Shown here piece after piece: positions 2,498-7,264 of a stretch of DNA of 9,456 nucleotides. Numbering within the stretch: position 1 is the stretch's first letter; every line of letters starts with the position of its first letter. Under the pieces are notes generated by a model. It was given only the letters and a program-made list of their open reading frames with translations. It made no database searches and was not told where the DNA came from. This stretch comes from an uncultured Frankiales bacterium (lineage in GTDB: Bacteria > Actinomycetota > Actinomycetes > Mycobacteriales > SCTD01): NCBI GenBank assembly GCA_946479905.1, contig CAMLIA010000169.1:1-9456 (forward strand), in the 5' to 3' direction. A program made the translations under genes and the position numbers.

Positions 2498-2697
2498 CGT
2501 TCCTCCTGTGCGCTGTAACGGCCCTTACCGGGCGTGGCTGGGTCGGCAGAGGAGGCGTTAGGCGCTGTTGGCTGGTTCGAGTCGCTCGCGAAGTAGCCGG
2601 TGCAGCGGCAGTCAGCGCAGCCCCACTGAGGGTCATGGGCGCGCTCGTGATGCCCGCAGTCGCACGGAGGAGAAGGCCGCTTATCGAGCGTGCTCAT
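2494..2697 (-). CDS. 67-aa protein with a CxCGHx4H...CxxCxC zinc motif
   Basis: The ATG at 2697 has an AAGGAGG site 6 nt upstream and an ATGA overlap. Residues 12-33 hold CDCGHHERAH followed by CADCRC, the pattern C-x-C-G-H-x4-H-x6-C-x2-C-x-C that recurs in small actinophage proteins and probably folds around zinc. The C-terminal half is low-complexity (Ser, Ala, Pro, Gly) and ends YSAQEER. The last codons double as the ribosome-binding site of the next gene. Biochemical role unknown. Confidence 0.72.
   Translation of the reverse strand: MSTLDKRPSPPCDCGHHERAHDPQWGCADCRCTGYFASDSNQPTAPNASSADPATPGKGRYSAQEER
2547..2562. repeat. 16-nt direct repeat, copy 2
   Basis: Identical to 2080-2095. It encodes PNASS in the 67-aa protein. 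The two copies start 467 bp apart, in neighbouring genes, at matching places near the C-terminus. Confidence 0.8.
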
Positions 2698-3623
2698 GAC
2701 GCCTCCTTCTTGCTCACACGGGCGAGCACGTCAGGCCACCAGACCTGCTGAACCCCGCCCTCGACCGGGCACGCCGCGGCGACGTGCCCTCGCTGAACCC
2801 ACTTCTTGACGTGATCGACCGACACCCGCGCCGCCCTGGCGGCCTCGCGCAGCGACACCCACTCGGCTTTTGACTCCCACGCTGCCCGCAGCGCGAGGGC
2901 GTACCGCTGCGGGTCGTAGCTGGCGTGGCAGCGCCGGCACGACACGTTCTCAGTGCTCAGCCCGGTCGCGGGGTCGACGACCCGCACGAGGTCCCCGCCG
3001 CAGTCGAAGCAGTCCGCGTTGGCCTTCTCGGTTGGCAGGTCCCGCCCGGTGGCGCGCTCGAGGCTCGCGTGGATCCGCTTGAGGTCGGACAGGAACTCGT
3101 CGAAGCCGAGGTGGTTGTTCGCGGCCCAGCGGGCGCGGCGCTCGAGGTAGCCGGCGGCGCGCAGCACGATGCTCGCCGGGCGGTGACCGAACTGCTCGAC
3201 CTCGCCGCGCTCCTCCTGCCACGCCAGCGCCCACCAACCGAGCTCGAAGCTCACCGGGCGGGGATCACCCTGCCGGGACGTCTCCGGGTCCTCAGACAGC
3301 CCCTCAGAGCCGCCCGAGAGCAGCGCCAGGGCATCCCCGCCGAGCAGCGGGCGCCCGTCACCGCCGCCGCGGCTGCTGCCGTAGGCGATCGGGTGCAGAT
3401 GACCGAGGTGGCTCGGGGCCTCGCAGAACATCGCCACGATGCCGCTCAGCAGGCTGCGGGCCTCGGTGAGGTCCGACTCGCAGACCAGCACGGGGTCGGT
3501 GTCGGCGAGGCTGCGGTGGCAGCAGATGCACAGCGGGTGTCCGCTGTCGGCGGCGTGCGCGGCGAGCTGCTCACGGGCTGGGCTGTCCGGGTCGGTGACG
3601 AAGTCGCAGCGCCGGCAGTTCAC
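2694..3623 (-). CDS. 309-aa zinc-ribbon and helix-turn-helix DNA-binding protein
   Basis: The GTG at 3623 overlaps the previous TGA (GTGA). A longer open frame upstream is not used, because it would overlap the neighbouring gene by about 150 nt. Three parts are visible: an N-terminal Cys region (CRRC at 3-6, then CICCH at 32-36 and Cys48); a central helical region (about 125-195) with a Trp/Glu-rich helix and a DEFLSDLKRIHASLE helix; and a C-terminal region with a zinc ribbon (CFDCGG at 205-210, CRRC at 229-232) followed by a MerR/excisionase-like helix-turn-helix (about 256-303: SLREAARAARVSVDHVKKW then a VWWPDVLARV strand-helix). Proteins with this ribbon-plus-HTH layout occur in many actinophages with no proven role. 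It is the best candidate here for a transcriptional regulator or for binding the repeats at 4008-4216. The assignment to that site is inference. Confidence 0.82.
   Translation of the reverse strand: MNCRRCDFVTDPDSPAREQLAAHAADSGHPLCICCHRSLADTDPVLVCESDLTEARSLLSGIVAMFCEAPSHLGHLHPIAYGSSRGGGDGRPLLGGDALALLSGGSEGLSEDPETSRQGDPRPVSFELGWWALAWQEERGEVEQFGHRPASIVLRAAGYLERRARWAANNHLGFDEFLSDLKRIHASLERATGRDLPTEKANADCFDCGGDLVRVVDPATGLSTENVSCRRCHASYDPQRYALALRAAWESKAEWVSLREAARAARVSVDHVKKWVQRGHVAAACPVEGGVQQVWWPDVLARVSKKEAS
3531..3546. repeat. Isolated 16-bp perfect dyad
   Basis: CAGCGG-GTGT-CCGCTG: perfect 6-bp arms around GTGT. It contains the GGGTGTCCGC core found in the repeat cluster at 4008-4216, about 460 bp away. 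It lies inside the HTH-protein gene and may be chance. Confidence 0.35.
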
Positions 3624-3805
3624 GCCGCACCAGCCAGCGCACACGCCGCGCAGATGAGTTCGACGATGAACGCGCCGTGGTCCTCGTCGAGGCTGTCGCA
3701 GTTCTTCCACCCGGTCGGTCGTTCGCTGTACGGCTCCCCGACCCGGATGTGCCGCCGGCAGTCCATGCACCCCAGGTCGGGGTCGGTGTTGCTGGGGTAG
3801 GTCAC
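3620..3805 (-). CDS. 61-aa zinc-finger-like protein
   Basis: The GTG at 3805 has GGAGGA 7 nt upstream and overlaps the previous stop (GTGA). Residues 13-16 are CMDC, followed by RRHIRVGEPYSERPTG, Cys36, and a C-terminal CAAC at 52-55. The pattern CxxC-x-hydrophobic-x-GExY ... CxxC resembles a small LIM/treble-clef-like finger seen in phage proteins (a binding turn followed by a GEPY strand). A structural zinc protein of unknown role, in the chain leading from the helicase to the HTH protein. Confidence 0.7.
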   Translation of the reverse strand: MTYPSNTDPDLGCMDCRRHIRVGEPYSERPTGWKNCDSLDEDHGAFIVELICAACALAGAA

Positions 3806-3912
3806 GACGGCTCCTCCGGGTCGGTCAGGTGGCGGGTTTCGCAGTCACGGGCGAGGACGGGCACGGGGTACTGGGTGCCGCAGAGCTCGCAGCACCACGG
3901 GTCGGGGGTCAT
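3802..3912 (-). CDS. 36-aa Cys-rich microprotein
   Basis: This gene links its neighbours exactly: the ATG at 3912 overlaps one stop (ATGA), and the TGA at 3802 overlaps the next GTG (GTGA). The peptide begins MTPDPWCCELCGTQYPVPVL and ends with an acidic tail DPEEPS. CCELCG plus CETRH (Cys24, His28) gives a C-x2-C ... C-x3-H zinc-knuckle-like arrangement. At 36 residues it is below usual gene-calling limits, but the overlaps at both ends and its zinc motif make it credible. Confidence 0.62.
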   Translation of the reverse strand: MTPDPWCCELCGTQYPVPVLARDCETRHLTDPEEPS

Positions 3913-4166
3913 GGGGTGGCCCGTCCGCAGTCCAGGCAGCGGCCGGCCTCGACCCAGCGGGAGCCGCAGTGCAGGCAGCTCGGATCGGTGTTCTGACCCC
4001 AGCCCGTCAGGGTGTCCCCGCTCTTAGAGCGGCGGGGACGGGGACACCCTGCCTCGGAGGCTCCGCCCCTAGGTGTCCCCGTGGTCTCGGGGACACCCTG
4101 CACCCCCTCTGACCTGCGGTTTTCCGTCTCAGGCGCCCGGGTGTCCCCGGGTGTCCGCGCCATCAC
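3909..4166 (-). CDS. 85-aa protein: repeat-encoded N-terminus plus C-terminal zinc knuckle
   Basis: The start is GTG 4166 (GTGA overlap with the helicase stop) or the adjacent ATG 4163; both read into MARTPGDTRAPETENRR. The first 50 residues are low-complexity (Pro, Gly, Thr, Arg, Glu), because this stretch is also the repeat array at 4008-4216. Residues about 64-80 hold CLHCG ... CLDCG, a clear paired CxxC zinc motif. The N-terminal half may be under DNA-level selection for the repeats, with only the C-terminal knuckle constrained as protein. A shorter product starting inside is possible, but no better start is seen. Function unknown. Confidence 0.6.
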   Translation of the reverse strand: MMARTPGDTRAPETENRRSEGVQGVPETTGTPRGGASEAGCPRPRRSKSGDTLTGWGQNTDPSCLHCGSRWVEAGRCLDCGRATP

Positions 4167-4216
4167 GGGGACACCTGCTCAGAGTCAGGGTGTCCGCGCC
4201 ATTCGGGGACACCCTG
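4008..4216. repeat. Nine-copy inverted/direct repeat array; candidate replication origin (iterons) or operator cluster
   Basis: Nine copies of a 13-bp element, consensus CAGGGTGTCCCCG (core GGTGTCC), occur at 4008-4020 (+), 4039-4051 (-), 4071-4081 (+), 4088-4100 (-), 4138-4149 (+), 4149-4163 (+), 4166-4177 (-), 4186-4202 (+) and 4204-4216 (-). Copies at 4008, 4039, 4088 and 4204 match the 13-mer exactly in one or other orientation. The two copies at 4149 and 4186 share the longer form GGGTGTCCGCGCCAT. Each unit is an imperfect dyad (GGG-TGT-CCC). Opposed pairs could form hairpins, the tightest being 4186-4195 with 4207-4216. The array spans the end of the helicase gene and the start of the next. 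Position and structure fit iterons bound by a replication initiator, or repressor operators; which one is inference. Confidence 0.85.
4017..4034. repeat. Hairpin between the first two repeats of the array
   Basis: CCGCTCT-T-AGAGCGG (4018-4032) is a perfect 7-bp odd palindrome lying between the opposed copies at 4008 and 4039. With a one-base bulge at 4033 it extends to C4017/G4034 and beyond. It contains the TTA triplet, one of the few AT-richer spots here. Confidence 0.6.
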
Positions 4217-5665
4217 AGAGCGCCTCCGGACGGCCTCCGCGATGACGTCGTTCCCGGCCTTCAGGCCCGCTCCGCGGATCAGCTCGCGAGCCTTCTTGCC
4301 ACCCATGTCGAGGGGCGCAGCGGCTTCGTCGAGAGCCTTGACGATGGCCTTCACCTTCGCGTCCCAGGCGGCCTTCCGGCCCTCGGCGTCGACGGTGTGC
4401 CGCAGCGGTCCCTGCTTGCGGTGCAGGACGAGGGTGCGTTCGGTGACGGGCATTCGGGCGGCTTCGCAGTCGAGCCGGTAGGTGTCGTCGGTGACGCGGG
4501 ACATCCGCCAGACGGCGTCGACGTCGCCGCTCTTGGCTGATCCGCCGCGCTGGCCCTTGGTTTCGTCCTTGCCGCTGTGGTCGAGCCGGATGAGGGCGAC
4601 GCCTTCCTGCTTGAGGCGCAGCCCGGTGTGCCGGTAGAAGCTCAGCCAGGTGTCGTTCTCGTTCTCTTCGCCGGCGATGCTGCGGCTGACGGTGTCGACG
4701 ACGACGACTTCGCAGGCGTACTCGCGGACGGCGGCGAGCAGTTCCTTGCCGCCGCGGTCGCTGTCGAGCGCCGCGAGGGTCGGGTAGGACAGGTAGCAGA
4801 GCCCCCCGAGGTCGTCGGGCCGTAGCCCCATGGCTTGCAGCCGCTCGCGGACGTCGGCTTTCGGGTCGTTCTCGAAGTCGATGTAGAGAACCCGGCGGGG
4901 CCGGTCGGGTGTCATGCCGAGGACGCTGACGCCGCGTGCCACCGAGGCGGCGAGTTCGAGCATGAGCAGGCTCTTGCCGACCTTGGGGGCGCTGTAGAGG
5001 GCCACGAGCCGCCGGGCGGGCAGGATCGGTTCGACGATCCATTCTTCTTCGCTGTCGTCGGCCCACAGCTCGTGCCAGTCGAGCGGCTTGACGCGCTCCC
5101 GGATGAGTAGCCGTAGCGCGGCGTCCTCCGCGTCCGGGTCGAGGGCGGGGGCGTCGGGTTCGACGTCGACGAGCTCGCCGGTCGCGGGGTCGACCTGCTG
5201 GCGCCGGCCGCCGAGGGTGACGGCGACCGGACCGGCCACGAGGTCGCTGAAGCCACCGAGGGTGTTGTCCCGCAGCGGCGGGTCGCGGGGTACGTCCATG
5301 CCGGCGCGCAGGCCGCTGTTGAGGCTGTCCTCGCAGGCCTTGAGGCCGTCTTCGACGATGAGGCCGTTCTGCTGGCACGCCTCGAGCAGCACTTGGCGGA
5401 TGTCGTCGGGGGCGAGCCAGTGGGGGGCGAACCGGCCGAGGGCGTAGGCGGCGGCGTTGAGGGCGGCGTTGCGGCCGGTGTCCTGCCCCATCTGGGCGAG
5501 CCCTTCGGCCTTGCCGCGCAGCGCCTTGCTGATCCATTCCCCGGCGCGGGGGTCGTCGCTGCGGACGAGGGCGAGCGCGCCGCTGGTGCGGGGCGCGGCG
5601 GGCGGCGTGGTGTTGTCGAGGCCACGGCGGGTCCGTTCGGCGGCCATGAGGTCGTTGAGGTTCAT
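4163..5665 (-). CDS. RepA-like AAA ATPase / replicative helicase
   Basis: A 500-aa protein starting at ATG 5665, which overlaps the primase-polymerase stop (ATGA). Residues about 65-125 are a helical module (NAAAYALGRFAPHWL ... LNSGLRAG) of the kind that follows primase-polymerase domains in actinobacterial elements. The RecA-like core follows: Walker A SAPKVGKS at 225-232 (first Gly of the classic motif replaced), IDFEND at 262-267 with a possible catalytic acidic residue, Walker B VVVVD at 320-324, and LDHSGKD at 361-367, typical of hexameric RepA/AAA_25 helicases. Residues about 436-482 form a probable winged-helix-like C-terminal domain. The last 20 residues (GVPEWRGHPDSEQVSP) are encoded by the repeat array. 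It should unwind the phage origin and act with the adjacent primase-polymerase. The frame is open upstream to 6076, but the ATGA overlap fixes the start. Confidence 0.9.
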   Translation of the reverse strand: MNLNDLMAAERTRRGLDNTTPPAAPRTSGALALVRSDDPRAGEWISKALRGKAEGLAQMGQDTGRNAALNAAAYALGRFAPHWLAPDDIRQVLLEACQQNGLIVEDGLKACEDSLNSGLRAGMDVPRDPPLRDNTLGGFSDLVAGPVAVTLGGRRQQVDPATGELVDVEPDAPALDPDAEDAALRLLIRERVKPLDWHELWADDSEEEWIVEPILPARRLVALYSAPKVGKSLLMLELAASVARGVSVLGMTPDRPRRVLYIDFENDPKADVRERLQAMGLRPDDLGGLCYLSYPTLAALDSDRGGKELLAAVREYACEVVVVDTVSRSIAGEENENDTWLSFYRHTGLRLKQEGVALIRLDHSGKDETKGQRGGSAKSGDVDAVWRMSRVTDDTYRLDCEAARMPVTERTLVLHRKQGPLRHTVDAEGRKAAWDAKVKAIVKALDEAAAPLDMGGKKARELIRGAGLKAGNDVIAEAVRRRSQGVPEWRGHPDSEQVSP

Positions 5666-6333
5666 GCGCTGACCCGGGGCGTCGGGTAGGTCGTCCAGCT
5701 GTAGCGGTTGCCGCCTGGTCCGAGGCTTGGGGGTAGCACGACGTAGCCGCCGTCGCCGCGCAGGTCGATGCCGGGTAGCGCCCTGGTGGTGCAGGAGGTG
5801 CCGGCGGCGAGGCTGTAGTAGTGCGAGCCGGGCGGGCGGGGCCGCTCCCGGGTCGGGTCGCCGGGTGTGGAGCACTTCGCGACGATGTCGGGGAGCAGCC
5901 CTCTGGCGGTGCAGACCGTGACGGCGCAGCAGTCCGGGGGGCACTGGGCGTGCTGCAGGTCCGCGATGCTGGCGTAGCCGTCGGGGCCGTCGACGTCGAT
6001 GACGTCGTAGCCGCCACCGCCCTGCTCGAGCCGGCCGGTGGGGGTGCCGATGTTGGCCTCCGGCCGCCGGCTCCACCAGGCTTCGATCTGAGCAGGGTCG
6101 ACGCTGGCGTCGAGGAACCCGTTGTGCGTGAGGGGTCGCTTCCCGCGTTCCACGAGTGGGAAGACGGGCCAGCCGAGCTGCTGGGCGTAGTACAGCGCGG
6201 AGGCTTTGAGGTTCACCGGCTTGGCGCGGCGGGCGGCGTCGGCGGCGTCGATGTCGGCCAGGAAGGTGATGAGTCCCTGGTCGTCGAGGGTCGCCATGTG
6301 GGCGCGCATCTCGTCGTCGGTCATGTGCTGCAT
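5662..6333 (-). CDS. Bifunctional DNA primase-polymerase (AEP prim-pol domain)
   Basis: A 223-aa protein from ATG 6333 (a second ATG lies at 6324; GGGGA is a weak upstream site). The archaeo-eukaryotic primase fold is readable. A helix ALYYAQQLGWPVFPL (46-60) is followed by GKRPL (64-68) and WWSRRPEANIGTPTG (86-100), the standard N-terminal signature. Motif I is VIDVDG (111-116) with metal ligands Asp113 and Asp115. Motif II is GSHYYSL with His171. Motif III is GIDLRGDGGYVVLPPS (188-203) with Asp190. The protein would make primers, and possibly extend them, at the phage origin. It lacks its own helicase domain, which is supplied by the overlapping downstream gene. Odd feature: about 30 residues containing Cys131, 135, 136, 141 and 154 lie between motif I and motif II, where the family usually has a short TPRGG turn. 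Confidence 0.92.
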   Translation of the reverse strand: MQHMTDDEMRAHMATLDDQGLITFLADIDAADAARRAKPVNLKASALYYAQQLGWPVFPLVERGKRPLTHNGFLDASVDPAQIEAWWSRRPEANIGTPTGRLEQGGGGYDVIDVDGPDGYASIADLQHAQCPPDCCAVTVCTARGLLPDIVAKCSTPGDPTRERPRPPGSHYYSLAAGTSCTTRALPGIDLRGDGGYVVLPPSLGPGGNRYSWTTYPTPRVSA

Positions 6334-6455
6334 CGGTGGAGTCCCCAGTGCTCGCGGGTTGCTGCGTGGTGGTTGGGTGACCGCCTGCGAGGTGCCTTCG
6401 CGGCGGTCCGTCCCCTGGGGAAGTGCTGGGCTGGCACCGTGCCCTTCGTGCTGGT
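6334..6455. other. 122-nt gap upstream of the primase-polymerase gene, with palindromes
   Basis: The only gap of more than a few bases between 1832 and 9456. It holds two perfect odd palindromes: TCCCC-T-GGGGA (6411-6421) and GGCAC-C-GTGCC (6433-6443), whose centres are 22 bp apart. No AT-rich -10 element is visible on the minus strand, and no U-tract follows either palindrome. It may carry an operator, a promoter of unfamiliar type or an RNA-level control site. Confidence 0.5.
6411..6443. promoter_or_regulatory. Two adjacent palindromes, candidate operator
   Basis: Perfect 11-bp odd palindromes TCCCCTGGGGA and GGCACCGTGCC, centres at 6416 and 6438. The 22-bp spacing is about two helical turns, which would suit two dimers on one DNA face. 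They lie between the ssDNA-binding-like gene and the prim-pol gene. An alternative is a weak terminator. No direct evidence of function. Confidence 0.35.
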
Positions 6456-6992
6456 CTAGAACGGCGGTTCGGTGTCCCATCCCGCCTTGCCGCCCGGCGC
6501 GGCGGGCGCAGCCGCGGCCGGGGCAGCTGCGGGCTCGCTGGTGCCGAGGAAGTCGTCGACGGCCTTCGCGGTCGGCGGGGTGTACTGGGCGGCGAACTGC
6601 TTCGGGGGGTTCATGCCGCGCTGCTTCGCGACCCCGTCGCCGGTGTACTTGACGGCGATGACGCCGCCGACCTCGAGGCCGCGGGCGCCGCTCTTGCGGA
6701 TCGCGTCCTTCACGGCGGCCTGCATGGCGCCCTTGACGTAGAGGCTCCGCAGCCCGTCGTCGTCGGGCTCGGTGGGGTCGCGGTCCTCGGTGGCGATGGT
6801 GACGACGAGCTGCATCATCGGCTTCCCGTCGTCCCAGAACTTCGGGGCGCCGGTCGTGAAGTCGGTCTGCTGGGACAGCGTTGGGGCGGTGGTGATGGTG
6901 CCCTTGACGACGGTGCCGACGTCGGGGAACTTCGCGCTCTTGGCGCCCCCCGACATGAGCCAGTCGTTGGCGTCGATCTGCGGTGCGGTCAC
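6456..6992 (-). CDS. Phage ssDNA-binding-like protein with SSB-type acidic tip
   Basis: A 178-aa protein. The start is GTG 6992, set by a strong AAGGAG site 5 nt upstream and a GTGA overlap; the stop is TAG. Residues 1-140 look like one beta-rich domain (VGTVVKGTITTAPTLSQQ, then MQLVVTIATEDRDP, LYVKGAMQAAVKDAIRKSG, LEVGGVIAVKYTGDG and RGMNPPKQFAAQYTPP), a family I know from many actinophages, often called hypothetical or ssDNA-binding protein. Residues 145-150 are VDDFLG. An Ala/Pro/Gly-rich linker (about 153-170) leads to the C-terminal WDTEPPF, which resembles the DDDIPF-type tip by which bacterial SSB recruits partners. The domain plus flexible linker plus acidic tip supports an SSB-like role in phage replication; the fold assignment is inference. 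It precedes the prim-pol and helicase genes. Confidence 0.75.
   Translation of the reverse strand: MTAPQIDANDWLMSGGAKSAKFPDVGTVVKGTITTAPTLSQQTDFTTGAPKFWDDGKPMMQLVVTIATEDRDPTEPDDDGLRSLYVKGAMQAAVKDAIRKSGARGLEVGGVIAVKYTGDGVAKQRGMNPPKQFAAQYTPPTAKAVDDFLGTSEPAAAPAAAAPAAPGGKAGWDTEPPF
6543..6562. repeat. 20-nt direct repeat encoding VDDFLG, copy 1
   Basis: GCCGAGGAAGTCGTCGACGG, identical to 8721-8740. Both copies are read in the same frame and encode VDDFLG, here at residues 145-150 of the ssDNA-binding-like protein. Confidence 0.85.
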
Positions 6993-7264
6993 TGCGTCTC
7001 CTTGGCGTGCTTCTGCTTGCCGCGAGGACCCGTCGCGGCGCGGGTGATCTGGTCGCCACCAACGGTGGCGTGGGGGAAGGACACGCGGCTCAACGGCTCC
7101 TGCGAGGCGCTAGCGGTCGTTCGGATGGCCTCGCGGAAGCTCAGCCCCTCATGGGCGACGGCACAGTGGAGCCTCCTGAGCTGCTCCATGCCAGTCCGGT
7201 CGACGCTGCCGCAGCCCCAGTCCGGGCAGTCAGGACAGCGCCACTCGTGGTACTGCTCGCTCAT
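6989..7264 (-). CDS. 91-aa C2H2-like zinc-finger protein
   Basis: The ATG at 7264 overlaps the methyltransferase stop (ATGA). The protein begins MSEQYHEWRCPDCPDWGCG, continues SVDRTGMEQLRRLHCAVAHEG and so gives C-x2-C ... H-x4-H, a C2H2-type finger with a short helix carrying the histidines. The C-terminal half is basic and ends GPRGKQKHAKETQ, suitable for nucleic-acid contact. The last codons (KHAKETQ) contain the AAGGAG ribosome-binding site of the ssDNA-binding-like gene, so the two are probably translationally coupled. Function unknown. Confidence 0.72.
   Translation of the reverse strand: MSEQYHEWRCPDCPDWGCGSVDRTGMEQLRRLHCAVAHEGLSFREAIRTTASASQEPLSRVSFPHATVGGDQITRAATGPRGKQKHAKETQ
6998..7003 (-). 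promoter_or_regulatory. Ribosome-binding site fixing the GTG start at 6992
   Basis: AAGGAG on the minus strand, 5 nt before GTG 6992. It decides this start for the ssDNA-binding-like gene. Confidence 0.75.

Follow-up and report, generated by a model that had tools for sequence, protein, structure and literature searches.

What function is served by a dense array of short repeats located at the very end of a helicase gene? This question is raised by the 9,456-nucleotide stretch of DNA analysed here (hereafter the window), where nine copies or close variants of the 13-mer CAGGGTGTCCCCG, four of them exact, occupy positions 4008–4216. An earlier inspection of the letters of this DNA (the sequence-only reading) regarded the array as a phage replication origin or a regulatory cluster. 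We examined the array in the window, its position and sequence in relatives of the helicase, and its relationship to the helicase protein.

The array and its neighbourhood in the window

On the minus strand, the order is a Prim-Pol gene (PF09250), an AAA_25 helicase gene (PF13481), the array and a small zinc-ribbon-like ORF. The features are listed below; the iterons were placed by their match to CAGGGTGTCCCCG.

5662..6459, minus strand: Prim-Pol gene, overlapping the start of the helicase gene, its own start codon being uncertain (Pfam Prim-Pol, E 3.5e-33)
4163..5665, minus strand: AAA_25 (RepA-like) helicase gene, 500 aa, proposed initiator (Pfam AAA_25, E 5e-29)
4217..4378, minus strand: segment encoding the three-helix HTH-like domain predicted at the C-terminus, which would read the iterons (AF2 model, clade-B covariation)
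4204..4216, minus strand: iteron 1, exact CAGGGTGTCCCCG
4186..4198, plus strand: iteron 2, one mismatch
4166..4178, minus strand: iteron 3, three mismatches, core GGTGTCCCCG intact
4147..4159, plus strand: iteron 4, two mismatches
4137..4149, plus strand: iteron 5, one mismatch
4108..4119, minus strand: constant element CCGCAGGTCAGA, preceded by AAAA (4120–4123), candidate unwinding or priming site (enriched in relatives)
4088..4100, minus strand: iteron 6, exact
4069..4081, plus strand: iteron 7, two mismatches
4039..4051, minus strand: iteron 8, exact
4018..4032, no strand assigned: terminal palindrome CCGCTCTAAGAGCGG, located between iterons 8 and 9 (7-bp stem, below the 8-bp threshold used for relatives)
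4008..4020, plus strand: iteron 9, exact
3909..4166, minus strand: small ORF, start within the array, zinc-ribbon-like CxxC...CxxC end, predicted only (ORF list, alignment)

The recount of the window agrees with the nine copies and four exact matches described in the sequence-only reading. The alternating orientation described there is seen for most of the iterons (by rising position, + − + − + + − + −) and is broken only by the same-strand pair at 4137 and 4147, which overlap each other by 3 bp. When up to three mismatches to CAGGGTGTCCCCG are allowed, 18 matches occur window-wide, 9 of them inside the array; 200 dinucleotide shuffles of the whole window gave a mean of 9.27 (sd 3.02, largest 16). 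With up to two mismatches, eight of the nine window matches are in the array, and the remaining one is at 3327. The nonamer GGTGTCCCC occurs seven times in the window, always inside the array, and of the 13 occurrences of the heptamer GGTGTCC, 9 are in the array and 4 elsewhere. As for a single 8-mer counted in both orientations, seven non-overlapping copies are found within 260 bp, while the maximum was four both in 60 whole-window shuffles, scanned with a coarser step, and in 500 shuffles of 800 local bases. The density of the array is thus never approached by shuffles.

Three iterons are located within the last 17 helicase codons (stop codon, 4163–4165), and the others are located in the small ORF, for which no Pfam or PHROG match was found. 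No Rfam match at the gathering score was found in the window, and the cumulative GC skew, proposed earlier as a check of the origin, has no clear turning point at the array. Further ORFs of the window match phage families (HNH, RusA, DNA methyltransferase and exonuclease). For the HTH protein encoded at 2694–3770, presumably the 309-aa protein previously suggested as a possible binder, no close relative was confirmed in the viral contigs, where arrays occurred; a role of this protein at the array is accordingly unsupported, although it may have one. The region of about 3503–3978 has DNA matches of 65–71% identity, mostly in mycobacteriophages (20 listed of 287 phage records for window positions 3000–7000); among the matches listed, this region is annotated as hypothetical or, in two Rhodococcus phages, as SSB.

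An AF2 model of the helicase (mean pLDDT 81, from an alignment of 90 rows) has a core of the RecA type, and its best PDB matches are 1nlf and 1olo, the RSF1010 RepA hexameric helicase (Foldseek for 1nlf: E 1.1e-6, TM 0.62 to the target, rank 1 of 965, with KaiC and RadA close behind). As modelled, the protein fits the RepA-like (RSF1010) hexameric RecA-fold class. Its C-terminal helices are predicted at 444–461, 470–479 and 486–497. A model of the C-terminal domain only gave three helices once more, and its PDB fold matches were weak, none being significant. The last helix ends at codon 4217–4219 and the first iteron begins at 4216, so that the array directly follows the HTH codons.

Array, word and constant element in relatives

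Loci carrying relatives of the helicase were taken from viral contigs, GTDB genomes, and sampled genomes near the genomes reached from those. The samples, which partly overlap, gave matches in 5/394, 6/396, 7/391 and 9/297 genomes at E 1e-40, and in 5/54 and 7/323 at E 1e-60. The 113 loci with a helicase match were reduced to 103, as 10 were taken as duplicates (L022, L024, L101, L117–L122 and L124). The locus counts given below are not independent because near-duplicates remain and inflate them (L107/L113, on one contig; L059/L110; L060/L115; L072–L074; L053/L063).

An array was counted when the helicase 3′ end carried one 8-mer at least five times as exact copies, with both orientations represented. 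Such arrays were found at 71 of the 103 loci, and more than 900 bp away, five copies are reached at 1 of the 103. Across the loci, 36 distinct top 8-mers were found, several of which are register shifts of one core. In all of the first relatives from viral contigs (L005–L012), an array lies at the helicase 3′ end or close to it (8/8; that of L012 lies about 520 bp past the stop codon), and these arrays are built from six words: CTGTCCCC (L005 and L008), AACTGTCC (L006 and L007), CCACCCCG, ATGCCCCG, CGGTTCCC and ACGGATCG. Loci with clear arrays have about 7–13 iteron copies by matrix, in both orientations. The nearest named relative found is Streptomyces phage mu1/6, whose helicase is 36.5% identical and whose helicase gene contains eight copies of ACCTGCCC. 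The position is thus kept and the repeats are kept as repeats among relatives, and this comparison favours the origin side of the sequence-only reading.

Fewer than five exact copies were found at 32 of the 103 loci: 19 have four and 13 have three or fewer. Among the latter, contig ends cut L026, L076 and L097, L034 and L109 are barely related, and eight are plain negatives (L025, L031–L033, L041, L047, L057 and L098). L031–L033 are mycobacterial and no more distant than the array-bearing mu1/6. No such array was found in BFK20 or in the Oline region. The L098 helicase has a recognisable HTH of the type paired with GGGGAACG and no array after it, which is a contrary result; this locus is possibly a decayed provirus or one with a replaced 3′ end.

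Two further observations were made. One is that, at positions 4648–7717 of L027 (IMGVR_UViG_2836621216_000001), a segment of about 1,020 bp comprising the helicase C-terminal part and the array is present in three tandem copies with 99.8–99.9% identity, which may be an assembly artefact or a real duplication of a candidate origin. Another is that an unrelated-looking viral contig (L003, 9938–9964) has one perfect inverted pair of the same 10-mer, apparently between divergent genes; this pair may be an operator.

The sequence-only reading also referred to the stoperators of phage L5, which are reportedly 13-bp sites spread over the genome. In the complete genome of mu1/6, the array in the helicase gene is the only one (eight copies; next best, three). 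The word is clustered there (8 of 14 copies), in two viral records that are possibly incomplete (8/13 and 10/15) and, as stated above, in the window. A stoperator-type dispersed operator is therefore not supported.

A cluster of operators, through which the HTH-like domain of the helicase or another protein would regulate the downstream genes or its own gene while replication starts elsewhere, is a separate and unlikely explanation. HTH-like domains often belong to repressors, and some copies of the word do lie outside the arrays (6/14 in mu1/6, and 5/13 and 5/15 in the two viral records). However, the outside count in mu1/6 is not unusual, since 13% of 336 8-mers of the same composition reach it; no sigma-70-type promoter-like or terminator-like site was found at the array; the array is within or at the end of an ORF in many relatives; and the domain that covaries with the word belongs to a replicative-type helicase.

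The position of the array relative to the stop codon differs among loci. In L006, L010, L011, L018 and L019, the array starts past the helicase stop codon, while in mu1/6 and its clade, the ORF continues through the array to a zinc ribbon, with the repeats encoding a proline-rich linker; in the alignment, this ribbon is similar to the end of the small ORF of the window. The coding overlap in the window, to which the sequence-only reading attached importance, is therefore incidental. In contrast, its expectation that relatives would keep the repeats and not the encoded peptide agrees with these positions.

In the window, the constant element CCGCAGGTCAGA (CCsCAGGTCArA as a consensus across arrays) is located between two sets of iterons. 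In the 980 bp around the helicase end, CCGCAGGTCAGA was found exactly at 17 of 95 loci, three near-duplicate pairs included, and with at most one mismatch at 36 of 95, as compared with 4/842 and 10/842, respectively, in control windows from the same loci; the 95 loci are those left after 18 duplicate, cut or distant loci were dropped. The element often follows an A-rich stretch, and an iteron often comes immediately after it. At 26 of 56 loci (46%; L056 and L070, whose best matches were judged misplaced, are excluded), it coincides with the least stable 24 bp of the array, as compared with 12% for random positions; the corresponding 24 bp in the window are found at a distance of 62 bp from it. 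The iterons flank a short A-rich constant element and not a long AT-rich block.

The constant element is absent from many arrays. In another subclade (L011, L018, L019 and L021), TTTCCCTCACAAA is found mid-array instead, about 76–90 bp past the helicase stop codon; L011 and L018, the two of these loci that were checked, encode fusions of Prim-Pol and helicase, as does L028. The helicases of mu1/6, L050, L055 and L059 carry a DnaB N-terminal domain (DnaB_N) and no Prim-Pol, and their loci have the constant element with zero or one mismatch, so this element is not tied to one primase. The helicase ORF of L013 likewise carries DnaB_N in place of Prim-Pol. C-rich hairpins centred on CTA/TAG and with stems of 8 bp or more were counted at 35 of the 103 loci, a count made without a chance control and into which the 7-bp stem of the window does not enter.

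Plasmid iteron arrays can serve copy control besides initiation, and the layout of an array alone does not separate the two. The array might accordingly be a site of replicon control or partition (incompatibility, handcuffing or a centromere-like function) that binds the initiator and is not itself the start site. We consider this very improbable: no partition family was found in the ten window ORFs scanned (Pfam and PHROG), and the constant A-rich element and the hairpin within the array resemble parts of an origin.

Covariation of the word with the helicase C-terminal domain

The clade that includes mu1/6 (clade B) comprised 58 candidates, from which L097, L098 and seven exact protein duplicates were removed, leaving 49 loci. 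For these loci, successive 12-residue segments of the protein were set against the iteron matrices, with the distance between the AAA cores as a control. The partial correlation is highest over helix 2 and the turn that leads to helix 3 (0.33–0.46). It is at most 0.215 ahead of the helix 2 peak, and little or none is left in the later part of helix 3 (0.11 and −0.01); past helix 3, in the stretch encoded by the array, values of up to 0.34 occur. The partial Mantel correlation for the HTH segment given AAA is 0.31 (p 0.001, n = 49), and that for AAA given HTH is 0.19 (p 0.002), indicating some independent correlation of AAA with the word. Helix 1 (0.02, p 0.35) and the downstream zinc ribbon (0.06, p 0.18) gave null results. 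In clade B, the word thus follows helix 2 together with the turn towards helix 3, and neither helix 1 nor the zinc ribbon. When 34 diverse loci were scanned in the same way, the correlation was weak, 0.24 at most, and the AAA domain had peaks of 0.21–0.22.

The relationship is also seen in individual comparisons. The mean word distance to the nearest neighbour is 0.14 when neighbours are chosen by HTH, 0.31 when chosen by AAA, and 0.36 for random pairs. Among 587 pairs with similar AAA, the word distance rises with the HTH distance, from 0.15 (48 pairs) through 0.27 (187 pairs) to 0.37 (352 pairs). The AAA core of L105 is 91–92% identical to those of its five nearest neighbours, of which the nearest (92%) has a word distance of 0.71 and the next four have 0.36–0.73; its nearest neighbour by HTH is L050, whose AAA is only 65% identical and whose word is common to both (distance 0.04). 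L079 behaves in the same way. These results support the suggestion that the C-terminal domain of the helicase may be the binder of the array.

The HTH segment adjoins the array on the DNA, and joint transfer could therefore produce covariation without contact. The pair L018 and L019 bears on this point. Across 1.2 kb on the upstream side and some 500 bp on the downstream side, these loci are mostly 87–98% identical, while the identity falls to 52% over helices 2–3, with a smaller dip (77%) about 330–360 bp before the stop codon. All nine scored iterons, that is, those matching four search words, share one base change, from GTGTGCCG to GTGTCCCG or a shortened form; a tenth, weaker and unscored copy has that change and one more. 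Such a pattern would be expected of a change of specificity, and it is possible that both tracts were imported, still as a matched pair, from a relative of the same architecture.

If linkage were the whole explanation, the HTH codons and the array would recombine together, and the word would be read by another protein or by none. The array of the window does directly follow the HTH codons, and the two tracts could be co-exchanged. We nevertheless give little credence to this view. Helix 1 on the upstream side and the zinc ribbon on the downstream side do not covary; in L018 and L019, the 50 bp that separate the replaced helices from the array are almost identical; and, beyond the base changed in 9/9 scored iterons, no other change is found in the 71 columns of the iteron core, against 24 differing columns out of 114 in the spacers.

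A candidate origin and its known counterparts

The array is a repeat cluster at one place in the genome, beside the proposed initiator gene in most relatives, as is the case for iteron-type origins. We estimate a probability of roughly 80% that a phage of actinobacterial type, or a related element, has its replication origin here, where the C-terminal domain of the helicase would bind the iterons and open the duplex and Prim-Pol would prime. The sequences themselves show the array, its kept position, the change of word between lineages, the constant element, the terminal hairpin and the covariation with the protein, whereas binding, melting, priming and the start of replication at the array are inferred from them. 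In the proposed mechanism, the AAA_25 helicase would bind the alternating iterons through its own three-helix HTH-like domain and assemble on both sides of the constant element; the duplex would open at or next to this A-rich element mid-array, where the helicase would load; and the Prim-Pol of the adjacent gene, or perhaps the host primase in the DnaB_N types, would prime the exposed strand.

Several known systems can be compared with this arrangement. In phage lambda, the iterons reportedly lie inside the coding sequence of the initiator O and are type-specific among relatives, similar to the arrays here. Lambda O is said to be a helicase-recruiting initiator with an N-terminal DNA-binding domain; unlike lambda O, the helicase here bears the proposed DNA-binding domain itself, at the C-terminus.

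A similar layout is that of the pri-rep-ori modules of SaPIs and PICIs, where the initiator helicase is beside a primase and the origin is immediately 3′ of the helicase gene (PMC6092414, PMC7581432). The window likewise has the array immediately 3′ of the helicase gene and a separate Prim-Pol gene next door. Two sets of iterons around a weaker segment, which may have a counterpart in the short A-rich element here, and a C-terminal domain as the origin binder are further described for SaPI/PICI (PMC6092414, PMC7581432). The likeness is one of layout; the helicases here are AAA_25/RepA-like with Prim-Pol or a DnaB N-terminal domain. Moreover, the iterons here alternate, the constant element and the C-rich terminal hairpin recur, and the hosts that could be placed are Actinobacteria. 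According to PMC7581432, the C-terminal domains of SaPI Rep and Cch2 recognise iterons downstream of their own genes. For CCPol-MP/Cch2 of SCCmec, the helicase C-terminal domain binds direct repeats just past its own gene, as proposed here; the putative SCCmec origin has three short iterons, with inverted repeats dispensable for binding (PMC7581432), whereas about 7–13 iterons in both orientations are found here. SaPI and SCCmec thus share the principle of origin recognition by the helicase's own C-terminal domain, which would operate here in a different helicase family.

In the PLE of Vibrio cholerae, the DNA-binding domain of RepA and an iteron origin covary, as here, and are swapped as a unit; they replicate only as cognate pairs (PMC8263062). 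The PLE differs in that the domain is a RepA_N domain, carried by an initiator and not by the C-terminus of a helicase, and in that three iterons of about 30 bp are used; an anti-origin nuclease is the proposed driver of change there (PMC8263062). The RepPP modules of actinomycete integrative elements (AICEs) resemble the window in having a Prim-Pol gene beside a replication gene, and differ in that the word 'iteron' is absent from the main text of PMC3218068.

A description of the origin of this helicase family was not found among the papers listed by searches of the open-licence literature, which mostly leaves out subscription journals; older work on mu1/6 and BFK20 replication may exist. 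An iteron origin beside its initiator is known as such. What is unusual is how widely the word changes while the plan is fixed, together with the link of the word to a short helicase segment. Tentatively, and at somewhat less than even odds, we propose that these loci belong to a large group of actinobacterial phage origins that diversifies fast: the sequence of the iterons would be dictated by a short part of the replicative helicase, and specificity would change when this part is swapped and about 10 iterons are rewritten in concert while the constant element and the hairpin stay.

If this proposal is true, the diversification could stem from origin-directed attack or from competition with co-resident elements, as proposed for PLE and ICP1. 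Arrays that serve as origins would at one stroke provide testable origins for actinobacterial phages and proviruses by the dozen, with the constant element as a single candidate site of melting or priming. The loci would also constitute a natural collection of protein domains paired with their DNA words, which might allow a recognition code to be deduced, and the way in which a replicon shifts its origin specificity when about 10 sites must change jointly would become testable.
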